Assembly: GCA_013812565.1 (NCBI GenBank)
Contig: JACCTF010000232.1
Span: 1 to 21,452, forward strand
Length of the DNA: 21,452 nt
Direction: 5' to 3'
Source of the DNA: Pyrinomonadaceae bacterium
GTDB lineage: Bacteria; Acidobacteriota; Blastocatellia; Pyrinomonadales; Pyrinomonadaceae
Below the pieces are notes generated by a model. The model saw nothing but the letters and a program-made list of their open reading frames with translations. It made no database searches and was not told where the DNA came from. Every line of letters begins with the position of its first letter. Within the stretch, counting starts at the first letter, position 1. Shown here piece by piece: positions 14,162-21,452 of the stretch. The translations under genes and the position numbers were made by a program.

Positions 14162-14249
14162 CGCTTGCCCTTCTCTTTCCTCTAAGCATCTTCCACGCCG
14201 TTTCCAACACACCAACGTTGCCTTGTCGCTTCGACAAAGGAGAGTATCC

Positions 14250-15605
14250 ATGTCCACACTTGCACCACCCAAGAGACCAGAAATCAAAACCGCTTTGCCT
14301 GGTCCAAATGCCAAGCAGATCATTGAAGCCGACCAGCAGTTTGTCACACCATCGTACCCACGTCCCTCTTTCAAGTTAGTTGCCGAGCGCGCCGAAGGCG
14401 TTTGGGTTGAGGACGTAGACGGCAACATCTTTCTCGACTGCAACGCCGGAGTAGCCGTCTGTTCAACTGGTCATTGTCACCCGGAAGTCGTCCGCGCAAT
14501 TCAGGAACAAGCCGCACAGCTCATACACATGTGCGGCACGGATTACTACTACCGGCATATGCCGGACCTCGCGCGCAAACTCGACGAGATCACCCCTGTC
14601 CCACGACCTACGCGCACGCACTTTGCCAACAGCGGCACCGAAGCGGTTGAAACCGCGTTGAAGCTGGCGATGCACGCCACGGGGCGCGAACGGTTCATCG
14701 CCTTCTTCAACAGCTTTCACGGGCGCACGCTCGGTTCACTTTCATTGACCTCATCAAGAGTGGCACAGCGACGCGGCTTTCGCCGTCAAGCACTTGATGT
14801 AACGCATGTGCCTTATGCTTACTGTGCGCGCTGCCCGTTTAATCTCGGTCGCTGCGCAGATGGTTCGTGCTGCTTGGGCGGACTCGACTGGATTGAGAAT
14901 CGTTTATTCAAAACTACTCTGCCGCCGGAAGAATGTGCCGCGATTGTCGTTGAATGTGTGCAGGGAGAAGGCGGCTACGTGCCTGCGCCCCGTGAGTTTC
15001 TGCAAGGTCTGCGACGCATCTGCGACGAGCATGGAATTCTGCTGATCGTTGACGAAGTGCAGTCAGGCATGGGTCGCACGGGCAAGATGTTTGCCTCAGA
15101 CCACTACGATTTGAAGCCTGACATTATATGCATTGCGAAGGGGATCGCATCGGGCTTGCCGCTCGGCGTGTGCGTGGCACGCGCTGATTTGATGGACTGG
15201 AAACCCGGCGCGCATGCTTCGACCTTTGGCGGAAATCCCGTGGCGATAGCTGCGGCGCTGAAGACAATTGAACTACTTGAACGCGAGTTGGTCAAAAATA
15301 GCCACGAGGTTGGCGAGTATCTCCAGCAAGGATTGCGTAAACTGATGGGGAAGCACGATTGCATCGGAGAGGTGCGTGGGCTTGGACTGATGGTTGGCGT
15401 TGAGTTTGTCGAGGATCGTGTTTCAATGAAACCTGCGCCCGAATTGCGTGACCGCATCGAACATGAATCGTTTGATCGCGGACTCATTCTATTAGGGGCC
15501 GGGCAGAACACAATCCGCTGGTCGCCGCCGCTCGTCATCACACGCGAGAACATCGATGTCGCATTAGAGATTTTCGATGAAGCGATTGCCGCAGCGGATG
15601 CATAA
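14250..15605 (+). CDS. Class III PLP aminotransferase (acetylornithine/4-aminobutyrate type, 451 aa)
   Basis: Fold type I PLP enzyme that moves an omega-amino group to a keto acid. NSGTEAVETALKLA (127-140) binds the PLP phosphate, and NSFHGRTLG (154-162) supplies the ring-stacking region. Asp268 in IVDEVQSGMGRTG contacts the pyridine nitrogen, Lys297 in CIAKGIASGLPLG forms the Schiff base, and STFGGNP (324-330) completes the site. An insert at 189-210 carries five cysteines (YCARCPFNLGRC, then SCC); a similar YCYRCPF segment occurs in archaeal-type ornithine/GABA aminotransferases as I recall. It probably acts on GABA, ornithine or lysine; the substrate cannot be fixed. AAAGGAGA precedes the ATG at 14250, so I reject the longer frame from 14223. 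A large palindrome overlaps its stop codon. Confidence 0.92.
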   Translation: MSTLAPPKRPEIKTALPGPNAKQIIEADQQFVTPSYPRPSFKLVAERAEGVWVEDVDGNIFLDCNAGVAVCSTGHCHPEVVRAIQEQAAQLIHMCGTDYYYRHMPDLARKLDEITPVPRPTRTHFANSGTEAVETALKLAMHATGRERFIAFFNSFHGRTLGSLSLTSSRVAQRRGFRRQALDVTHVPYAYCARCPFNLGRCADGSCCLGGLDWIENRLFKTTLPPEECAAIVVECVQGEGGYVPAPREFLQGLRRICDEHGILLIVDEVQSGMGRTGKMFASDHYDLKPDIICIAKGIASGLPLGVCVARADLMDWKPGAHASTFGGNPVAIAAALKTIELLERELVKNSHEVGEYLQQGLRKLMGKHDCIGEVRGLGLMVGVEFVEDRVSMKPAPELRDRIEHESFDRGLILLGAGQNTIRWSPPLVITRENIDVALEIFDEAIAAADA

Positions 15606-15655
15606 CGCTGCGGATAAGCTGCGGCATTGTCATGCTGCAGCTTATCCGCAGCGTT
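15604..15655. repeat. Perfect 19-bp palindrome, attC-like upstream cassette junction
   Basis: AACGCTGCGGATAAGCTGC (15604-15622) is the exact reverse complement of 15637-15655, with a 14-nt loop. It starts inside the TAA of the class III aminotransferase. Box positions follow attC: GCATAAC as R'', then 6 nt, GAT, AAGCTG; and on the right CAGCTTAT, 5 nt, GC, GTT. Unlike a functional attC, the arms pair fully, with no unpaired spacer and no extrahelical bases. Its terminal GTT is the left boundary of the cassette described next. It may be a degenerate or symmetrised attC, or just a strong 3' hairpin. Confidence 0.7.
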
Positions 15656-16814
15656 CGGCGGCTTCGCTTCACGTCGCAATGGAATATCCAATGAACCCTA
15701 CTATAAAATTCGAGTAATGATGCGCCTAAACCTACCTGTTATCGCTGATACCGCTGATTACAAGCGCCATTTTAGTAATGACGTGTGGCAACAAGCTGTC
15801 GCGATTATCTGTGATCGGCATCATCTTCCTTACACGAGTTTGCGGCGTTCGCAGCAGGGCGAAAACATCATCTTCTTTGTTGACGAACGGTTGGTTATCA
15901 AAATCTTCGCTCCGTTTCGTGAAAGCTACTTACGCGAGAAAGCGGCACTCGAATTCGCTAACGGCAAACTTGGCATTGAAACGCCAGCGATTTTATGCGC
16001 AGGAGAACTCGAAGGCTGGTCATATCTCGTGGTGACACAGCTTAGGGGGGTTCCGGCGAGAGAAGCGTGGTTAGAAATCGAATTGCACGAGCGTATCGGA
16101 ATTGTCTCCTGTCTTGGTGTGGCGCTGAAGAGTTTGCACAATCATGCCGCCCCTCTCTCACAACCCGCGCTGAATCGTGATTGGCATGGATTCATTGAGC
16201 GACAAGCAAAAATGAGTGTTGAGCGGCAGCGAGCCTGTGGCGCAAATCCTGAATGGTTGGAGAGGCTGCCCGGTTATATTGCCGCGAGACTTGAGTTACT
16301 ACCGGCAGAATATGAGCCTGCGCTGCTTCATGGTGACGTTCATCTAGGTAATTTGCTGCTCGCGCAAGAGAACGGACACTGGAAGATTACAGGCTTATTC
16401 GATTTCGGCGACTCATTTTGCGGTTTTCATGAATATGATTTTGTCGCGCCCGGTGTCCTCATGGTACAAGGAAGCCGCGAACTGCAGAGGGCGATTCTGC
16501 TCGCTTATGGTTATAAAGAATCGCAGCTTGATATGAATTTACGTGCCCGGTTGATGCTGCTAACCGTTCTTTACGAATGCAGCGATTTGCGTAAGTACGC
16601 TTTGCGTCTTATGCCCAAAGCTATTACTTTCACGCTCGACGAACTAGAAGCCGCGATCTGGACATTTGCAGCAGAGTAATAGCGGCGATAGCGTGCTCAC
16701 GTCGGACGCGCCGCCGAACAATCGCTTGCACCTGACCGCCCGGTAGCATGCTTCTCAAGCAGCCTCGTTCCTTCAGCTTGAATGCTGCTCGCGGGCGGCA
16801 GGTGAAGCGGGGCG
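15654..16814 (+). mobile_element. Integron gene cassette carrying an APH-family kinase
   Basis: The right end is a well-formed attC (16713-16820). The left end is G^TTCGGC at 15653-15659. In a cassette, the first bases derive from the same circular site as the R'' box of its own attC, so they should be complementary. Here 15653-15662 (GTTCGGCGGC) is the exact reverse complement of 16710-16719 (GCCGCCGAAC). The single gene starts 63 nt inside the left boundary and stops 34 nt before the attC, with no strong promoter of its own; both are typical of cassettes. No integron integrase or attI is in the window, so this may be a lone chromosomal cassette or part of a cluster without integrase. Confidence 0.75.
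15717..16679 (+). CDS. APH/choline-kinase-fold phosphotransferase (320 aa), cassette-borne
   Basis: Eukaryotic-protein-kinase-like small-molecule kinase that uses ATP. The ATP-binding lysine is in LVIKIF (about residue 62), with a helix glutamate at about 74. The catalytic loop LLHGDVHLGN (Asp207, Asn212) and the metal-binding LFDFGDS (Asp229, Asp232) are complete, so the enzyme should be active. The family includes aminoglycoside, macrolide and hygromycin kinases but also homoserine, fructosamine and choline kinases; the substrate cannot be named. Two adjacent ATGs (15717, 15720) follow TAA-rich leader sequence; the longer frame from 15627 crosses the palindrome and is rejected. Its position in an integron-type cassette raises the chance of a resistance or detoxification role, but this is inference. 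Confidence 0.85.
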   Translation: MMRLNLPVIADTADYKRHFSNDVWQQAVAIICDRHHLPYTSLRRSQQGENIIFFVDERLVIKIFAPFRESYLREKAALEFANGKLGIETPAILCAGELEGWSYLVVTQLRGVPAREAWLEIELHERIGIVSCLGVALKSLHNHAAPLSQPALNRDWHGFIERQAKMSVERQRACGANPEWLERLPGYIAARLELLPAEYEPALLHGDVHLGNLLLAQENGHWKITGLFDFGDSFCGFHEYDFVAPGVLMVQGSRELQRAILLAYGYKESQLDMNLRARLMLLTVLYECSDLRKYALRLMPKAITFTLDELEAAIWTFAAE

Positions 16815-16820
16815 TTAGAT
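16713..16820 (+). repeat. attC recombination site (59-base-element type), 108 bp
   Basis: R'' is GCCGAAC (16713-16719) and R' is GTTAGAT (16814-16820; fits GTTRRRY), followed by GC. After R'' come 6 nt (AATCGC), then TT-g-CACCTG-a-CCGCCC; the right arm reads GGGCGGCAGGTGAAGC. CGCTT, CACCTG and CCGCCCG pair while g and a bulge out, leaving AAT opposite GCCC unpaired. The two extrahelical bases are 6 bp apart on the L'' arm, as in aadA1 attC, and the spacing to R'' and R' also matches. The inner part (AGCAT ... CAAGC / GCTTG ... ATGCT) forms the variable terminal stem. It begins 34 nt after the kinase stop. Confidence 0.85.
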
Positions 16821-17102
16821 GCTCGCGCCTGTAAACTTTGACAAGAAACCTCGCCGTAATTGCATTGAAGTCTTCGCTGCTTTAATCTCGCCTTCGCCGG
16901 ACATTTACATCGAGAGAGAGCCAACGTCTCTGGTCTTTTCTTTTGCCTCCGCTAGATGTTGACCTGCAAGAGCGAGCACCAACTTGGCTTGTTCTTTTCT
17001 TGGTAGTCAGTTCGGTGGATAGCAGGAGTGAAGTTGCTTGTATGTTAAATTACTGGAAAGCGCGGGAGCTGGGTGAGCCTCGTTTCAACGAAAGAGTCTC
17101 TT
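16821..17102. other. Gap between attC and the TonB-dependent receptor
   Basis: About 280 bp with no supported gene. The 69-aa frame from 16943 has no ribosome-binding site or family resemblance. No convincing -35/-10 pair was found for the receptor. If a further cassette began at TTAGATGC (16815), its own attC should contain GCATCTAAC; I found no such word downstream in the window. Confidence 0.5.
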
Positions 17103-19490
17103 ATGATCCCCATTTACCAACTGCCCTTTGGGCTTTACGACAAGAGCTATAGTCGCATCACCTCAAGATACTGCTTGCGCGTGATGCTGACGCTAAAGCT
17201 AACTCTTTTACTCGCTGCGCAACCCTTACTGTTCAGCGTTTATGCTCAGTCTCGGAATCAAGCGTCGCTATCAACCTCTGTGGTAACTCTTCGCGGGCGG
17301 GTGGTTGATGCTCGAACTGGTGAGCCGATCTCGAAAGTTAAAATTATTGTCGGCGAATCCGAGCAGAGCACGACGACAGATGAGCGCGGCGCTTTTACAA
17401 TCGAGAATCTGCCGCCCGGCGAAGTCGAGCTGTACATCACAACGGTCAACTACGGCTTAACAAAGAAGACAATTCTCGTTAAAGAAGCGGAGAACACCCA
17501 GATAGAGATTGCCCTTAATCAAGAAGCCGCGACGTTGAGCGAGCAAGTCACCGTGACAGCACGCCCGTTTGAAGAAACGGAAACCAATCCGGCGTCCGAA
17601 CAAAGTCTCAACAAAAGCGAACTCCAAAAGCTTTCAACCGTGCTGCTTGGTGATCCGTTGCGTGCGGCGCAAGCCTTGCCAGGTGTGATCGCCAATGATG
17701 ACTTTCGCAGTGAGTTCGCCGTGCGCGGCGCTGGTTTTGGTCGCGTCGGCGTCTATGTTGATGGTGTCCTCACGGATAACTTTGTTCACACCTTGCAAGG
17801 CAATCCTCTCGACACAGGTTCAATTTCAGTTATCAACGCCGACACGCTCAGCACGGTGTCGCTCTTGAGCGGAGCGTACCCGGCGCGGTATGGCGACAGC
17901 ACGGCGGCAGTGCTCAATCTGGAAACCAGAGACGGCAACCGCGTTAAGCCCACCGGACGTATTGCGGCAAGCTTGAGCAATACTTCAGGAGTCGTTGATG
18001 GACCGTTTGCCGGAGGGCGCGGCTCGTACCTGTTTGCCGCACGCAAAAGCTACCTCGGATACTTAGTGCGCCGCGTCAACGATGCAAATGACAATACGGA
18101 CAACCTTTCGATCATCGAGTTTGCCGATATACACGGCAAAGCCGTTTACGATTTATCCGCTCTCCAGCAGTTCGGTATCTCAGCCATCTTCGGCAGCTTC
18201 GACTTTGATCGAAACCGTCCGCGCGAGCAATTGGGCTTGAATCGAACGCTCAATGCTGACTCGCGCAATTTCCTCCTTGATGCCCACTACAGCTATACGC
18301 CTAACTCTCGACTGTTCACGCAAACCCGCGTCTTCGGCTTACGCACAAGCTTTACAAACATGAACGCCGCTGGTCGCATTCTTGAGGATGGACTGCGCAC
18401 GCAAGCTGGTATCCGCAGTGACATCAACTTTCTCATTCGCCCATCACACCGTATTGAGGCTGGTCTGTATGTGCGCTCGTTACGCGGCGAGCGACTCAGC
18501 GAGCGCTTTCAATCTTCATCAGGCGCAGTGGTGACAGCACGCAATCTGGAAAGCTTTGCTCGCCGTGCAACAGAGCAGAGCTATTACGCGCAAGATACTT
18601 ACACGAACGAGCGTCTAGGTTTATCTCTCACCGGCGGAGGTCGTATTGAGCACATCGGATTGACGGATGAGACGGTGTTTTCTCCCCGTGCGGCGCTTCA
18701 ACTTGCATTCAGCGATCAGTGGAGAGTACGCGCAGGCTTCGGCATGCACTACCAGTTCCCGGACTTCCAGTACATCTTCGGTCAGTTTGGCAATACAGGT
18801 TTACGCGCCGAACGAGCCACACATTACAACTTGAGCGTCGAGCGAAACTTTGGGAGCAGAACGCGCGTGCTTGCCGAAGTCTATGATCGAGAAGACGCAA
18901 ACCTGATCTTCAGCCTTTCAGAACCGCGCCTTGAAGCAGGTCGCGTTACGTTCGCTCAATTTCCTTATCGCAATGCCCTACGCGGTTACGCGAGAGGCAT
19001 TGAGCTAACGTTGCAACGACGCAGCGCCAATAACCTGACCGGATGGGTATCTTACGCTTATGCCAAAACTCGCCTGCGAGATAAAAACAACAATCTCAAC
19101 TTTGCAAGCGACTTCGATCAGCGACACACCTTGAACACCCATGCGAGCTACCGCTTCACGGAAACCTTCAACTTGAGCGGGCTGTGGCGCTACGGCACCG
19201 GTCTACCTGTTCCAGGCTTCTTTCGATTGAATGAACCAACGCTGTTTCTCGCCGGTGAGCGCAATCTCTTCAGATTACCCGCCTACAGCCGCGTTGACGT
19301 GCGAGCAAGCAAAGCCTTCTTCTTTCGGAGGGTGAAGCTAACGCTTTCGGGCGAAATCCTAAATCTGCTCAATCGCGATAACTTCCGTTACACCGGCTTT
19401 GACCGGTTCACTTCGCAAGGCGCAGTGATAGGTAGCTTAGACAAGCTGCTTCCTATTTTGCCGTCGGCAGGGATAGTTATCGAGTTCTAA
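17103..19490 (+). CDS. TonB-dependent outer-membrane receptor with carboxypeptidase-regulatory-like domain (795 aa)
   Basis: Gated outer-membrane beta-barrel for energy-dependent uptake of a large or scarce ligand. A hydrophobic segment (LKLTLLLAAQPLLFSVYAQ) is the signal peptide core. The next about 85 residues form a CarboxypepD_reg-like beta sandwich (VVTLRGRVVDARTGEPISKV ... TTDERGAFTIENLPPGEVEL). A TonB-box-like stretch (LSEQVTVTARP) precedes the plug (LQKLSTVLLGDPLRAAQALP ... VRGAGFGRVGVYVDGV ... GAYPARYGDST). The remainder is amphipathic strand-rich barrel ending in phenylalanine (GIVIEF). The family resembles Oar-like receptors of Acidobacteriota and Myxococcota. AAAGAG precedes ATG 17103; the ATG at 17184 gives a tidier signal peptide, so the true start is uncertain. 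The substrate cannot be predicted. Confidence 0.88.
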   Translation: MIPIYQLPFGLYDKSYSRITSRYCLRVMLTLKLTLLLAAQPLLFSVYAQSRNQASLSTSVVTLRGRVVDARTGEPISKVKIIVGESEQSTTTDERGAFTIENLPPGEVELYITTVNYGLTKKTILVKEAENTQIEIALNQEAATLSEQVTVTARPFEETETNPASEQSLNKSELQKLSTVLLGDPLRAAQALPGVIANDDFRSEFAVRGAGFGRVGVYVDGVLTDNFVHTLQGNPLDTGSISVINADTLSTVSLLSGAYPARYGDSTAAVLNLETRDGNRVKPTGRIAASLSNTSGVVDGPFAGGRGSYLFAARKSYLGYLVRRVNDANDNTDNLSIIEFADIHGKAVYDLSALQQFGISAIFGSFDFDRNRPREQLGLNRTLNADSRNFLLDAHYSYTPNSRLFTQTRVFGLRTSFTNMNAAGRILEDGLRTQAGIRSDINFLIRPSHRIEAGLYVRSLRGERLSERFQSSSGAVVTARNLESFARRATEQSYYAQDTYTNERLGLSLTGGGRIEHIGLTDETVFSPRAALQLAFSDQWRVRAGFGMHYQFPDFQYIFGQFGNTGLRAERATHYNLSVERNFGSRTRVLAEVYDREDANLIFSLSEPRLEAGRVTFAQFPYRNALRGYARGIELTLQRRSANNLTGWVSYAYAKTRLRDKNNNLNFASDFDQRHTLNTHASYRFTETFNLSGLWRYGTGLPVPGFFRLNEPTLFLAGERNLFRLPAYSRVDVRASKAFFFRRVKLTLSGEILNLLNRDNFRYTGFDRFTSQGAVIGSLDKLLPILPSAGIVIEF

Positions 19491-19598
19491 ATTCAGGCGT
19501 TATGTTGCTTCTCTCCTGAACCTTGTGTTGTGGGGCATCGGTCATAGTGGCTGGCTAAATCAAACCACACAAGACCGGTACGCAATGGACGACCTCAC

Positions 19599-19679
19599 CG
19601 CAGAGACCGAGGAGCCGAGCCGCAGAGGTTCGCAGAGTAAGCAGGTCAATTCTCTGCGAGTCTCTGCGGGAACTCTGCG
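19599..19679. repeat. Inverted array: three CGCAGAG followed by three CTCTGCG
   Basis: CGCAGAG at 19599-19605, 19621-19627 and 19631-19637. Its reverse complement CTCTGCG occurs at 19652-19658, 19662-19668 and 19673-19679. The halves face each other around a 14-nt centre and can fold into a branched or extended hairpin. It lies between the convergent receptor gene and the 48-aa ORF, the right place for a bidirectional terminator. I recall similar CGCAGAG-type words dispersed in other environmental genomes. The rest of 19491-19715 shows nothing else firm. Confidence 0.85.
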
Positions 19680-19715
19680 TCTGCGACGGTGAAGATTGTT
19701 TCTGCGACCGTCACG

Positions 19716-19862
19716 TTACGAATAATCGAGTGTCCGCACCTTTTTGATCGCCGCCGCGTCTCGATCATTACTATTGCGCACAACTTTGCTCTCAGTCGTT
19801 TGCCCGACGACAAAAATTGGGACGGCCAAGCACAAGGCTAAAACTGCGAACGCACGTTTCAT
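19716..19862 (-). CDS. Small secreted peptide (48 aa), possibly a truncated NTF2-like protein
   Basis: ATG at 19862 follows a strong AAGGAG (19872-19877) at 9-nt spacing. The N-terminus KRAFAVLALCLAVPIFVVG with QTTES after it is a clear signal peptide, leaving about 28 mature residues. These end DRDAAAIKKVRTLDYS and then TAA. The segment AAIKKV...LDY resembles the first helix of secreted NTF2/lumazine-binding-like proteins, which run about 130-150 residues, so the ORF may be the 5' remnant of a longer gene. The CGCAGAG array lies 37 nt beyond the stop. It could equally be a genuine small secreted peptide. Confidence 0.5.
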   Translation of the reverse strand: MKRAFAVLALCLAVPIFVVGQTTESKVVRNSNDRDAAAIKKVRTLDYS

Positions 19863-20017
19863 CAGTTAGCTCTCCTTATCCGAATGGTTGTTTCTCCATA
19901 TGTGCTGTGTCAAGGAGCGGCGGAGAAATTCCGTCAAGGCGCGTTCACGCTGAAACTTCCACTCAAAGCGAAAGATCGCCGCGCAAGCCTGACATAGCTT
20001 CTCCATGATGATGAGGA

Positions 20018-21305: not shown

Positions 21306-21452
21306 TTGATTGCTCCTTTCAGTGAATTGTTCCTATCGTTCTTTATCTCAACTGCGGGGTGTTTCGTGATTACCCGCGAGCGCCTAACGCAAATTAGGTT
21401 TTGACGCAAAGGAAAAGAGTCCGAAGTCGTAAGATGAAGTCGATAAGTGTCG

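Follow-up and report, generated by a model that had tools for sequence, protein, structure and literature searches.

A solitary gene cassette with one attC site behind an aminotransferase gene of a Pyrinomonadaceae bacterium: a probable off-target insertion

A single attC site without an integrase is termed a SALIN in PMC12690207, and the default threshold of IntegronFinder 2 for a CALIN is two attC sites, according to PMC9024848. Cassettes can be inserted at genomic sites outside attI and attC, called attG (Loot et al. 2024, as reported in PMC12444791 and PMC12901181); the account of attG insertion in PMC12444791 is of experiments in E. coli. Off-target insertion by a distant integron integrase (IntI) is one route to integrase-less attC clusters given in PMC8618304, whose phylum list includes Acidobacteriota, and the attC sites of Acidobacteria have been modelled (PMC8352920). 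Inverted repeats, attC among them, are also insertion sites for group IIC and IIC-attC introns, which settle behind them (PMC8876359). A literature search, with subscription papers mostly outside its scope, found among the papers listed none on the integrons of Pyrinomonadaceae or Blastocatellia.

The locus described here looks like a natural, cleanly bounded example of this known kind of mobile DNA. As in a SALIN, there is one attC and one cassette with no adjoining integrase, but the host genome holds an IntI fragment and further attC matches, and the target is a definable gene-end hairpin. Like an attG insertion, in which crossovers take place at the G before a T-rich core, it presents a cassette in the genome outside both attI and attC; unlike the attG experiments, it offers the natural end product only, with the target at the end of a near-perfect hairpin. 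The attC is of the same family as those in the arrays of relatives, some of which lie beside IntI, as in the CALINs and chromosomal integrons of Acidobacteriota, from which it differs in being solitary and outside an array. Group IIC introns move by RNA-based retrohoming, whereas this locus contains no intron, and a group II reverse transcriptase gene is found beside the host's IntI fragment on contig C1068. The preliminary description had considered an undescribed cassette; such novelty is modest, given that SALINs are already named, Acidobacteria attC sites are modelled and the family of the kinase carried here occurs in 22 of 162 genomes of the class. The locus is of interest as what looks like a single cassette inserted in nature, whose two junctions can be read to the base and whose target can be identified; attC matches are frequent in its phylum. 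It gives a concrete case for asking whether the off-target insertion seen in the E. coli experiments of PMC12444791 shapes natural genomes and whether hairpins attract insertion.

The window, i.e. the whole stretch of 21,452 nucleotides that was analysed, is the entire contig C804 of a 5.34 Mb genome in 1103 contigs (90.7% complete). The predicted cassette (1161 bp, TT...G, positions 15654–16814, plus strand) lies between two genes of the same strand. On its left is a class-III aminotransferase of the acetylornithine aminotransferase family (14223–15605; PF00202 388 bits, NF004426 582 bits against a cut-off of 552), the start codon of which is uncertain, its homologues beginning ~9 residues later. 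On its right, after a flank outside the cassette (16815–17072) with TTAGAT as its first bases, comes a TonB-dependent receptor with a carboxypeptidase-regulatory domain (17073–19490; PF00593, PF13715, PF07715). The relatives of the aminotransferase are from Pyrinomonadaceae or Acidobacteriota (class Blastocatellia), in keeping with the Acidobacteriota-type chromosome proposed earlier for this integron cassette. Rfam models at gathering thresholds match nothing in the whole window except one tRNA. The cargo is an APH-fold small-molecule kinase of 320 residues (15717–16679, plus strand, starting at ATG 15717 or 15720; PF01636 82 bits). Its flanks within the cassette are short, with 63 nt before ATG 15717 and 33 nt from the stop codon to R'', and a simple scan of 15550–17100 found no sigma-70-like promoter against 1.1 expected in shuffles; both features had been noted before and stand. 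Expression of the kinase would rest on read-through from the aminotransferase gene or on a promoter missed by such a scan.

The attC site (108 bp, positions 16713–16820, plus strand) scores 66.8 bits with a covariance model, R1, described below. It consists of R'' (16713–16719), a spacer (16720–16723), L'' (16724–16741), a loop, L' (16793–16808), a second spacer (16809–16813) and R' (16814–16820). R'' reads GCCGAAC and R' reads GTTAGAT, with AAC and G^TT in place; L'' and L' form 4+6+6 pairs with unpaired spacers, and the L'' arm carries two extrahelical bases, G at 16728 and A at 16735, with a spacing of 6 bp. The boxes, spacers and extrahelical bases in sequence and fold are those that the preliminary description had claimed. 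R'' differs at position 4 from RYYYAAC, the consensus quoted in PMC12901181, and the matching change is present at the cassette start. A crude scan for R'', R' and arms, which is blind to variants with C at R'' position 1 and whose zero counts on other contigs are left out for that reason, gives one site in the window (score 32), and 20 single-base shuffles give one match (score 20).

The bottom strand of 16705–16830 folds as DNA with an energy of -34.7 kcal/mol (z -3.0), a stability reached by none of 200 shuffles; this fold had been proposed as a check on the attC. In the lowest-energy fold of the integrated attC (117 nt), the outer four L pairs, GCTT/AAGC, are unpaired. The integrated site gives -33.9 kcal/mol for the top strand and -32.3 for the bottom strand, and the attC of an excised circle (120 nt) gives -42.6 and -43.7 kcal/mol, respectively. 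The fold energies of circle and integrated site show no preference for the bottom strand, which counts against an insertion. The greater stability of the bottom strand in the excised circle (-43.7 vs -32.3 kcal/mol) counts for a cassette, and R'' and R' pair at 4 of 7 positions in the integrated form vs 7 of 7 if circular.

Gene cassettes start with TT, end with G, and their first bases complement their own R''. The window cassette follows this rule at 7 of 7 positions, with an extension to 10 nt. At the left junction (15653–15662, plus strand), G 15653 belongs to the host and TTCGGCGGC is the cassette start; together they read GTTCGGCGGC, the exact 10-nt complement of 16710–16719, as had been reported. 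This 10-mer occurs in the window at these two arms and at no third place (2 found against 0.14 expected); when the 111-nt leader 15606–15716 was shuffled base by base 20,000 times, one shuffle contained it. The 7-mer alone is not rare in the window (7 found against 5.1 expected). The assignment of 15654–16814 as the cassette follows from the G^TT at both ends and the complementarity to R''/R'. A separate R''-like sequence, GCGCCTAAC, is present at 21380–21399, about 70 bases from the contig end, and has no R1 match at E<=0.5.

R1 is an attC covariance model that was built here from sequences other than the host's; it is distinct from IntegronFinder's model. A species-genome collection was scanned with a 3'-arm pattern common to the window site and a site on contig C142 of the host, and 11 stretches matched, on records labelled Synechococcaceae, Competibacteraceae, Acidobacteria, Chloroploca, Chromatiaceae and others. 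Four of these (L083, L086, L089 and L091) have no 5' arm beside the matched 3' arm, may be chance matches, and were left out. The training set comprises 11 aligned sites from the other seven stretches (L081, L082, L084, L085, L087, L088, L090), seven of them pattern matches and four picked up when these stretches were rescanned with relaxed settings. Its covariation is reached by none of 500 shuffles, a control that ignores relatedness. IntI scores above the curated cut-off in five of the seven genomes that hold eight of the 11 stretches; the best IntI of one of them, G164, has an internal stop.

In the whole host genome, the window attC has an E-value of 4.4e-13 and is the best of 12 R1 matches at E<=0.01 on nine contigs (15 matches at E<=5), which makes the covariance test, proposed earlier, significant. 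Part of this score is built in, as the 3' arm of the window and C142 sites served to find the training set. The circularity is answered in part, because R1 then finds arrays beside IntI: matches in relatives form runs, often spaced 0.3–1.5 kb, with genes between them in the two loci examined (L084, L194). The second-best host site (C142, L042, 425–779, 58.6 bits) is located behind what look by eye like two small genes, one of which was tested and has no Pfam match. Another host contig, C657 (L043, 4420–5163, minus strand), carries a DUF433/DUF5615 pair behind a gene that by eye resembles 2-oxoglutarate dehydrogenase E1. An attC-like site precedes the pair (R1 23.7 bits, E 0.065 in the genome) and half an attC, unreported by R1, follows it; the pair is possibly a second cassette outside an integron.

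We favour the reading, at a rough probability of 0.68, that 15654–16814 is a single cassette (a SALIN), made up of the kinase gene and its attC, which was put off-target by an IntI acting in trans at the G^TT of a hairpin end. In this reading, the cassette circle, with its attC folded, would have been recombined by an IntI of the host lineage into the G^TT behind the aminotransferase gene. Such an event would be attG-like and its product a single-attC element; an IntI acting in trans could also excise the cassette again.

The hairpin in question (15604–15655) has arms of 24 nt (96% complementary) and a 4-nt loop, overlaps the stop codon of the aminotransferase, and has a right arm ending in the G^TT that is the likely insertion point. 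It was considered as a second attC and rejected, having no R1 match at E<=0.5, no unpaired spacers and no extrahelical bases. That the hairpin guided the insertion is a conjecture from one case. In the rebuilt empty site, ...CCGCAGCG|TTAGATGC, the extra pairing of the palindrome is equalled by 34 of 726 GTT sites and is not significant. Among 12 other single-site loci (eight in relatives and four on the host's own contigs), the left junction is clear in three (L221, L241, L253), and none of these three has a hairpin, judged by eye, in the 30 nt before it; a further locus (L151) has two equal candidates for its left junction. Hairpin insertion as a rule is not borne out by the three clear loci. 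It is doubtful that IntI in Pyrinomonadaceae puts cassettes singly at gene-end hairpins that mimic attC by their AAC...G^TT stem ends. If it were true, gene-end hairpins would be dispersed landing pads, and the clade's own genes would circulate as cassettes without an integron platform.

The cassette might also be a remnant that was never inserted singly, either the last survivor of a longer array or a piece that a rearrangement separated from an integron. PMC8618304 counts rearrangement and the loss of intI among the routes to integrase-less attC clusters, and arrays are commoner than single sites in the family. In a survey of ten relatives, covering the top match of every contig among the first 40 listed and up to 6 kb on either side, 30 of the 40 top-scoring sites have another R1 match at E<=0.01 in the stretch. 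The remaining 10 have none, from which solitary cassettes appear to be a regular minority; four of these 10 have a contig end no more than 2.6 kb away, including one that is 1.5 kb from an IntI. Against a remnant, the cassette here has an ordinary single gene on either side, and its left junction directly follows the near-perfect hairpin at the gene end, which has neither unpaired spacers nor extrahelical bases. There is no second R1 match in the 21 kb at E<=0.5, short of the two attC sites of a CALIN, and the contig has no match to the integrase model TIGR02249, and with it no intI beside the cassette as in a complete integron. Taken together, a remnant is rather unlikely, yet it is the alternative that we take most seriously. 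The high fragmentation of this metagenome-assembled genome (1103 contigs) would suit an assembly chimera, in which an unrelated cassette contig was joined to host DNA. This is hardly credible with a GC content that is nearly flat across the cassette junctions (0.51–0.56 in 1-kb windows), kinase relatives at the level of the class that come from the host's family, and junctions exactly at G^TT.

The preliminary description had reported no integrase nearby. This holds for the 21-kb contig and fails for the genome, where the search for intI and attC that it proposed gave an IntI fragment and, beyond the window, 11 attC matches at E<=0.01, spread over eight contigs. The IntI pieces lie at positions 2–836 of contig C1068, where they occupy two frames and run off the contig (TIGR02249 225.8 and 146 bits); they share 78–80% identity with the IntI from an Acidobacteria MAG. 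As the gene is split and cut by the contig end, it is a predicted integrase only, which counts against an insertion. Within 2–2524 of the same contig (L039), the two-frame IntI stands beside the group II intron reverse transcriptase gene (RVT_1, GIIM), whose orientation would suit an intron on the cassette side of an integron; further on are a second phage-type integrase and an IS91-type transposase.

In the class, R1 matches at E<=1e-4 are present in 88 of 162 genomes, the host included (27 candidates were scored per genome). IntI at E<=1e-40 is present in 63 of 162, and 51 of 162 exceed the cut-off; a limit of E<=1e-3 is unspecific (14 of 14 control genomes match, against none of 14 at 1e-30 and 1e-40). 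Both attC and IntI are found in 51 genomes, attC alone in 37, IntI alone in 12 and neither in 62, with an odds ratio of 7.1 (p 5e-8) that is inflated by shared ancestry. In one member of the family, G018, an IntI of 453.8 bits (positions 1–313 of 315) is divergent to eight R1 matches that start 1.1 kb away. Contig C103 of G146 has more than 20 R1 matches in ~16 kb (73341–89550), and at least nine other contigs of this genome carry matches. G001 and G026, of different genera, have IntI at identical coordinates (18949–19890), which hints at shared contigs or cross-binning. Outside the phylum, plasmid pMESIL01 of Allomeiothermus (NC_014213.1, 343297–343399, L192) carries a site 80.6% identical to that of the window over 103 nt (R1 48.2 bits). 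This is a Deinococcota hot-spring plasmid with a tyrosine recombinase gene near the attC-like site; it was dropped as a full integron with the same attC, its adjoining integrase having no TIGR02249 match.

A further alternative is that the kinase gene is native to the chromosome and that the palindrome arose or landed behind it. Orthologues of the aminotransferase (E<=1e-150) are found in 56 of 60 genomes, the host included, and 30 of these loci, the host and 29 relatives, were compared; the 26 further matches were left out. Conservation of the kinase in place, raised earlier as a check, is rejected for the relatives compared: within 1.5 kb behind the aminotransferase, or up to the contig end, neither the kinase nor the receptor is found in any of the 29. 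By eye, the gene-end sequences of these relatives have no visible alignment, and several also carry an inverted repeat of other sequence at the aminotransferase end. No empty site was found among the relatives compared, and the 60 genomes include no relative of the host's genus; this counts against an insertion. In metagenomes, the lengths of the contigs that carry three near kinase homologues (21001, 126277 and 43666) are absent among those of the 120 aminotransferase homologues listed, which is weak evidence on synteny.

Of the 162 genomes of the class, 22 have an orthologue of the kinase (E<=1e-20), again with the host counted, and the relatives at this level belong to the host's family. 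A native kinase would fit the 19 of these 22 loci in which the 1.5 kb around the kinase is free of R1 matches at E<=1. It would also fit the rankings of G011 and G035, which are at or nearly at the top for both the aminotransferase and the kinase, among the six relatives in which both genes were compared and the kinase is 67–72% identical, as expected from vertical descent. An R1 match near the kinase is present in three of the 22 loci, those of the host, of G011 and of G082. The order in G011 is an acetyltransferase gene, the attC and then the kinase, and the kinase adjoins a class-I tRNA synthetase gene (leuS by eye); because G035, of the same genus, has the same tRNA synthetase neighbour, the kinase of G011 looks native. 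In G082, of another genus, the genome carries a near full-length IntI, and the kinase, 68% identical to that of the window, begins directly after the fourth attC of an array. Its start, GTTCGACGGC, recurs as the complement GCCGTCGAAC behind the stop codon, but the final 156 bp of the contig contain no recognisable complete attC, which counts against an insertion. The protein starts ~16 residues later than that of the window. In the tree, it falls inside the window kinase's clade of eight rows (100/100), apart from the kinases of the four other members of G082's genus. From the arrangements in G011 and G035 on the one hand and G082 on the other, the kinase family exists as an ordinary gene and also directly behind attC sites. 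Against a native kinase at the window locus stand the 10-nt junction match, the attC score, the arrangement in G082 and gene neighbours that differ among the relatives examined, and we regard it as very improbable.

The kinase translation contains HGDVHLGNLL and FDFGDS, which we take to be its catalytic motifs. With its APH fold, its weak similarity to the hygromycin-B 7''-O-kinase 6iy9 (E 1.5e-9) and JGI labels naming this enzyme on many relatives, the cassette might carry working aminoglycoside resistance. The scores with NCBIfam APH models fall far below their cut-offs, with 35.7 bits against 205 for APH(3'), 33.3 against 640 for APH(7''), and 19.2 against 625 and 18.8 against 400 for two others. 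A search of the plasmid collection at E<=1e-5 also gave nothing for the kinase, and the idea of a plasmid gene was dropped. Resistance as the function of the cargo is thus highly unlikely; judged from sequence, a small-molecule kinase of metabolism is the likeliest cargo. Some distant homologues adjoin a kynureninase gene (five loci) or a gene of FAD-binding monooxygenase type (four loci), which also speaks against resistance. A test of nine such neighbours, which had been picked by eye in seven loci, gave a fit for all nine; these seven loci (L108, L112, L113, L114, L115, L117 and L119) suggest a link to the kynurenine pathway.
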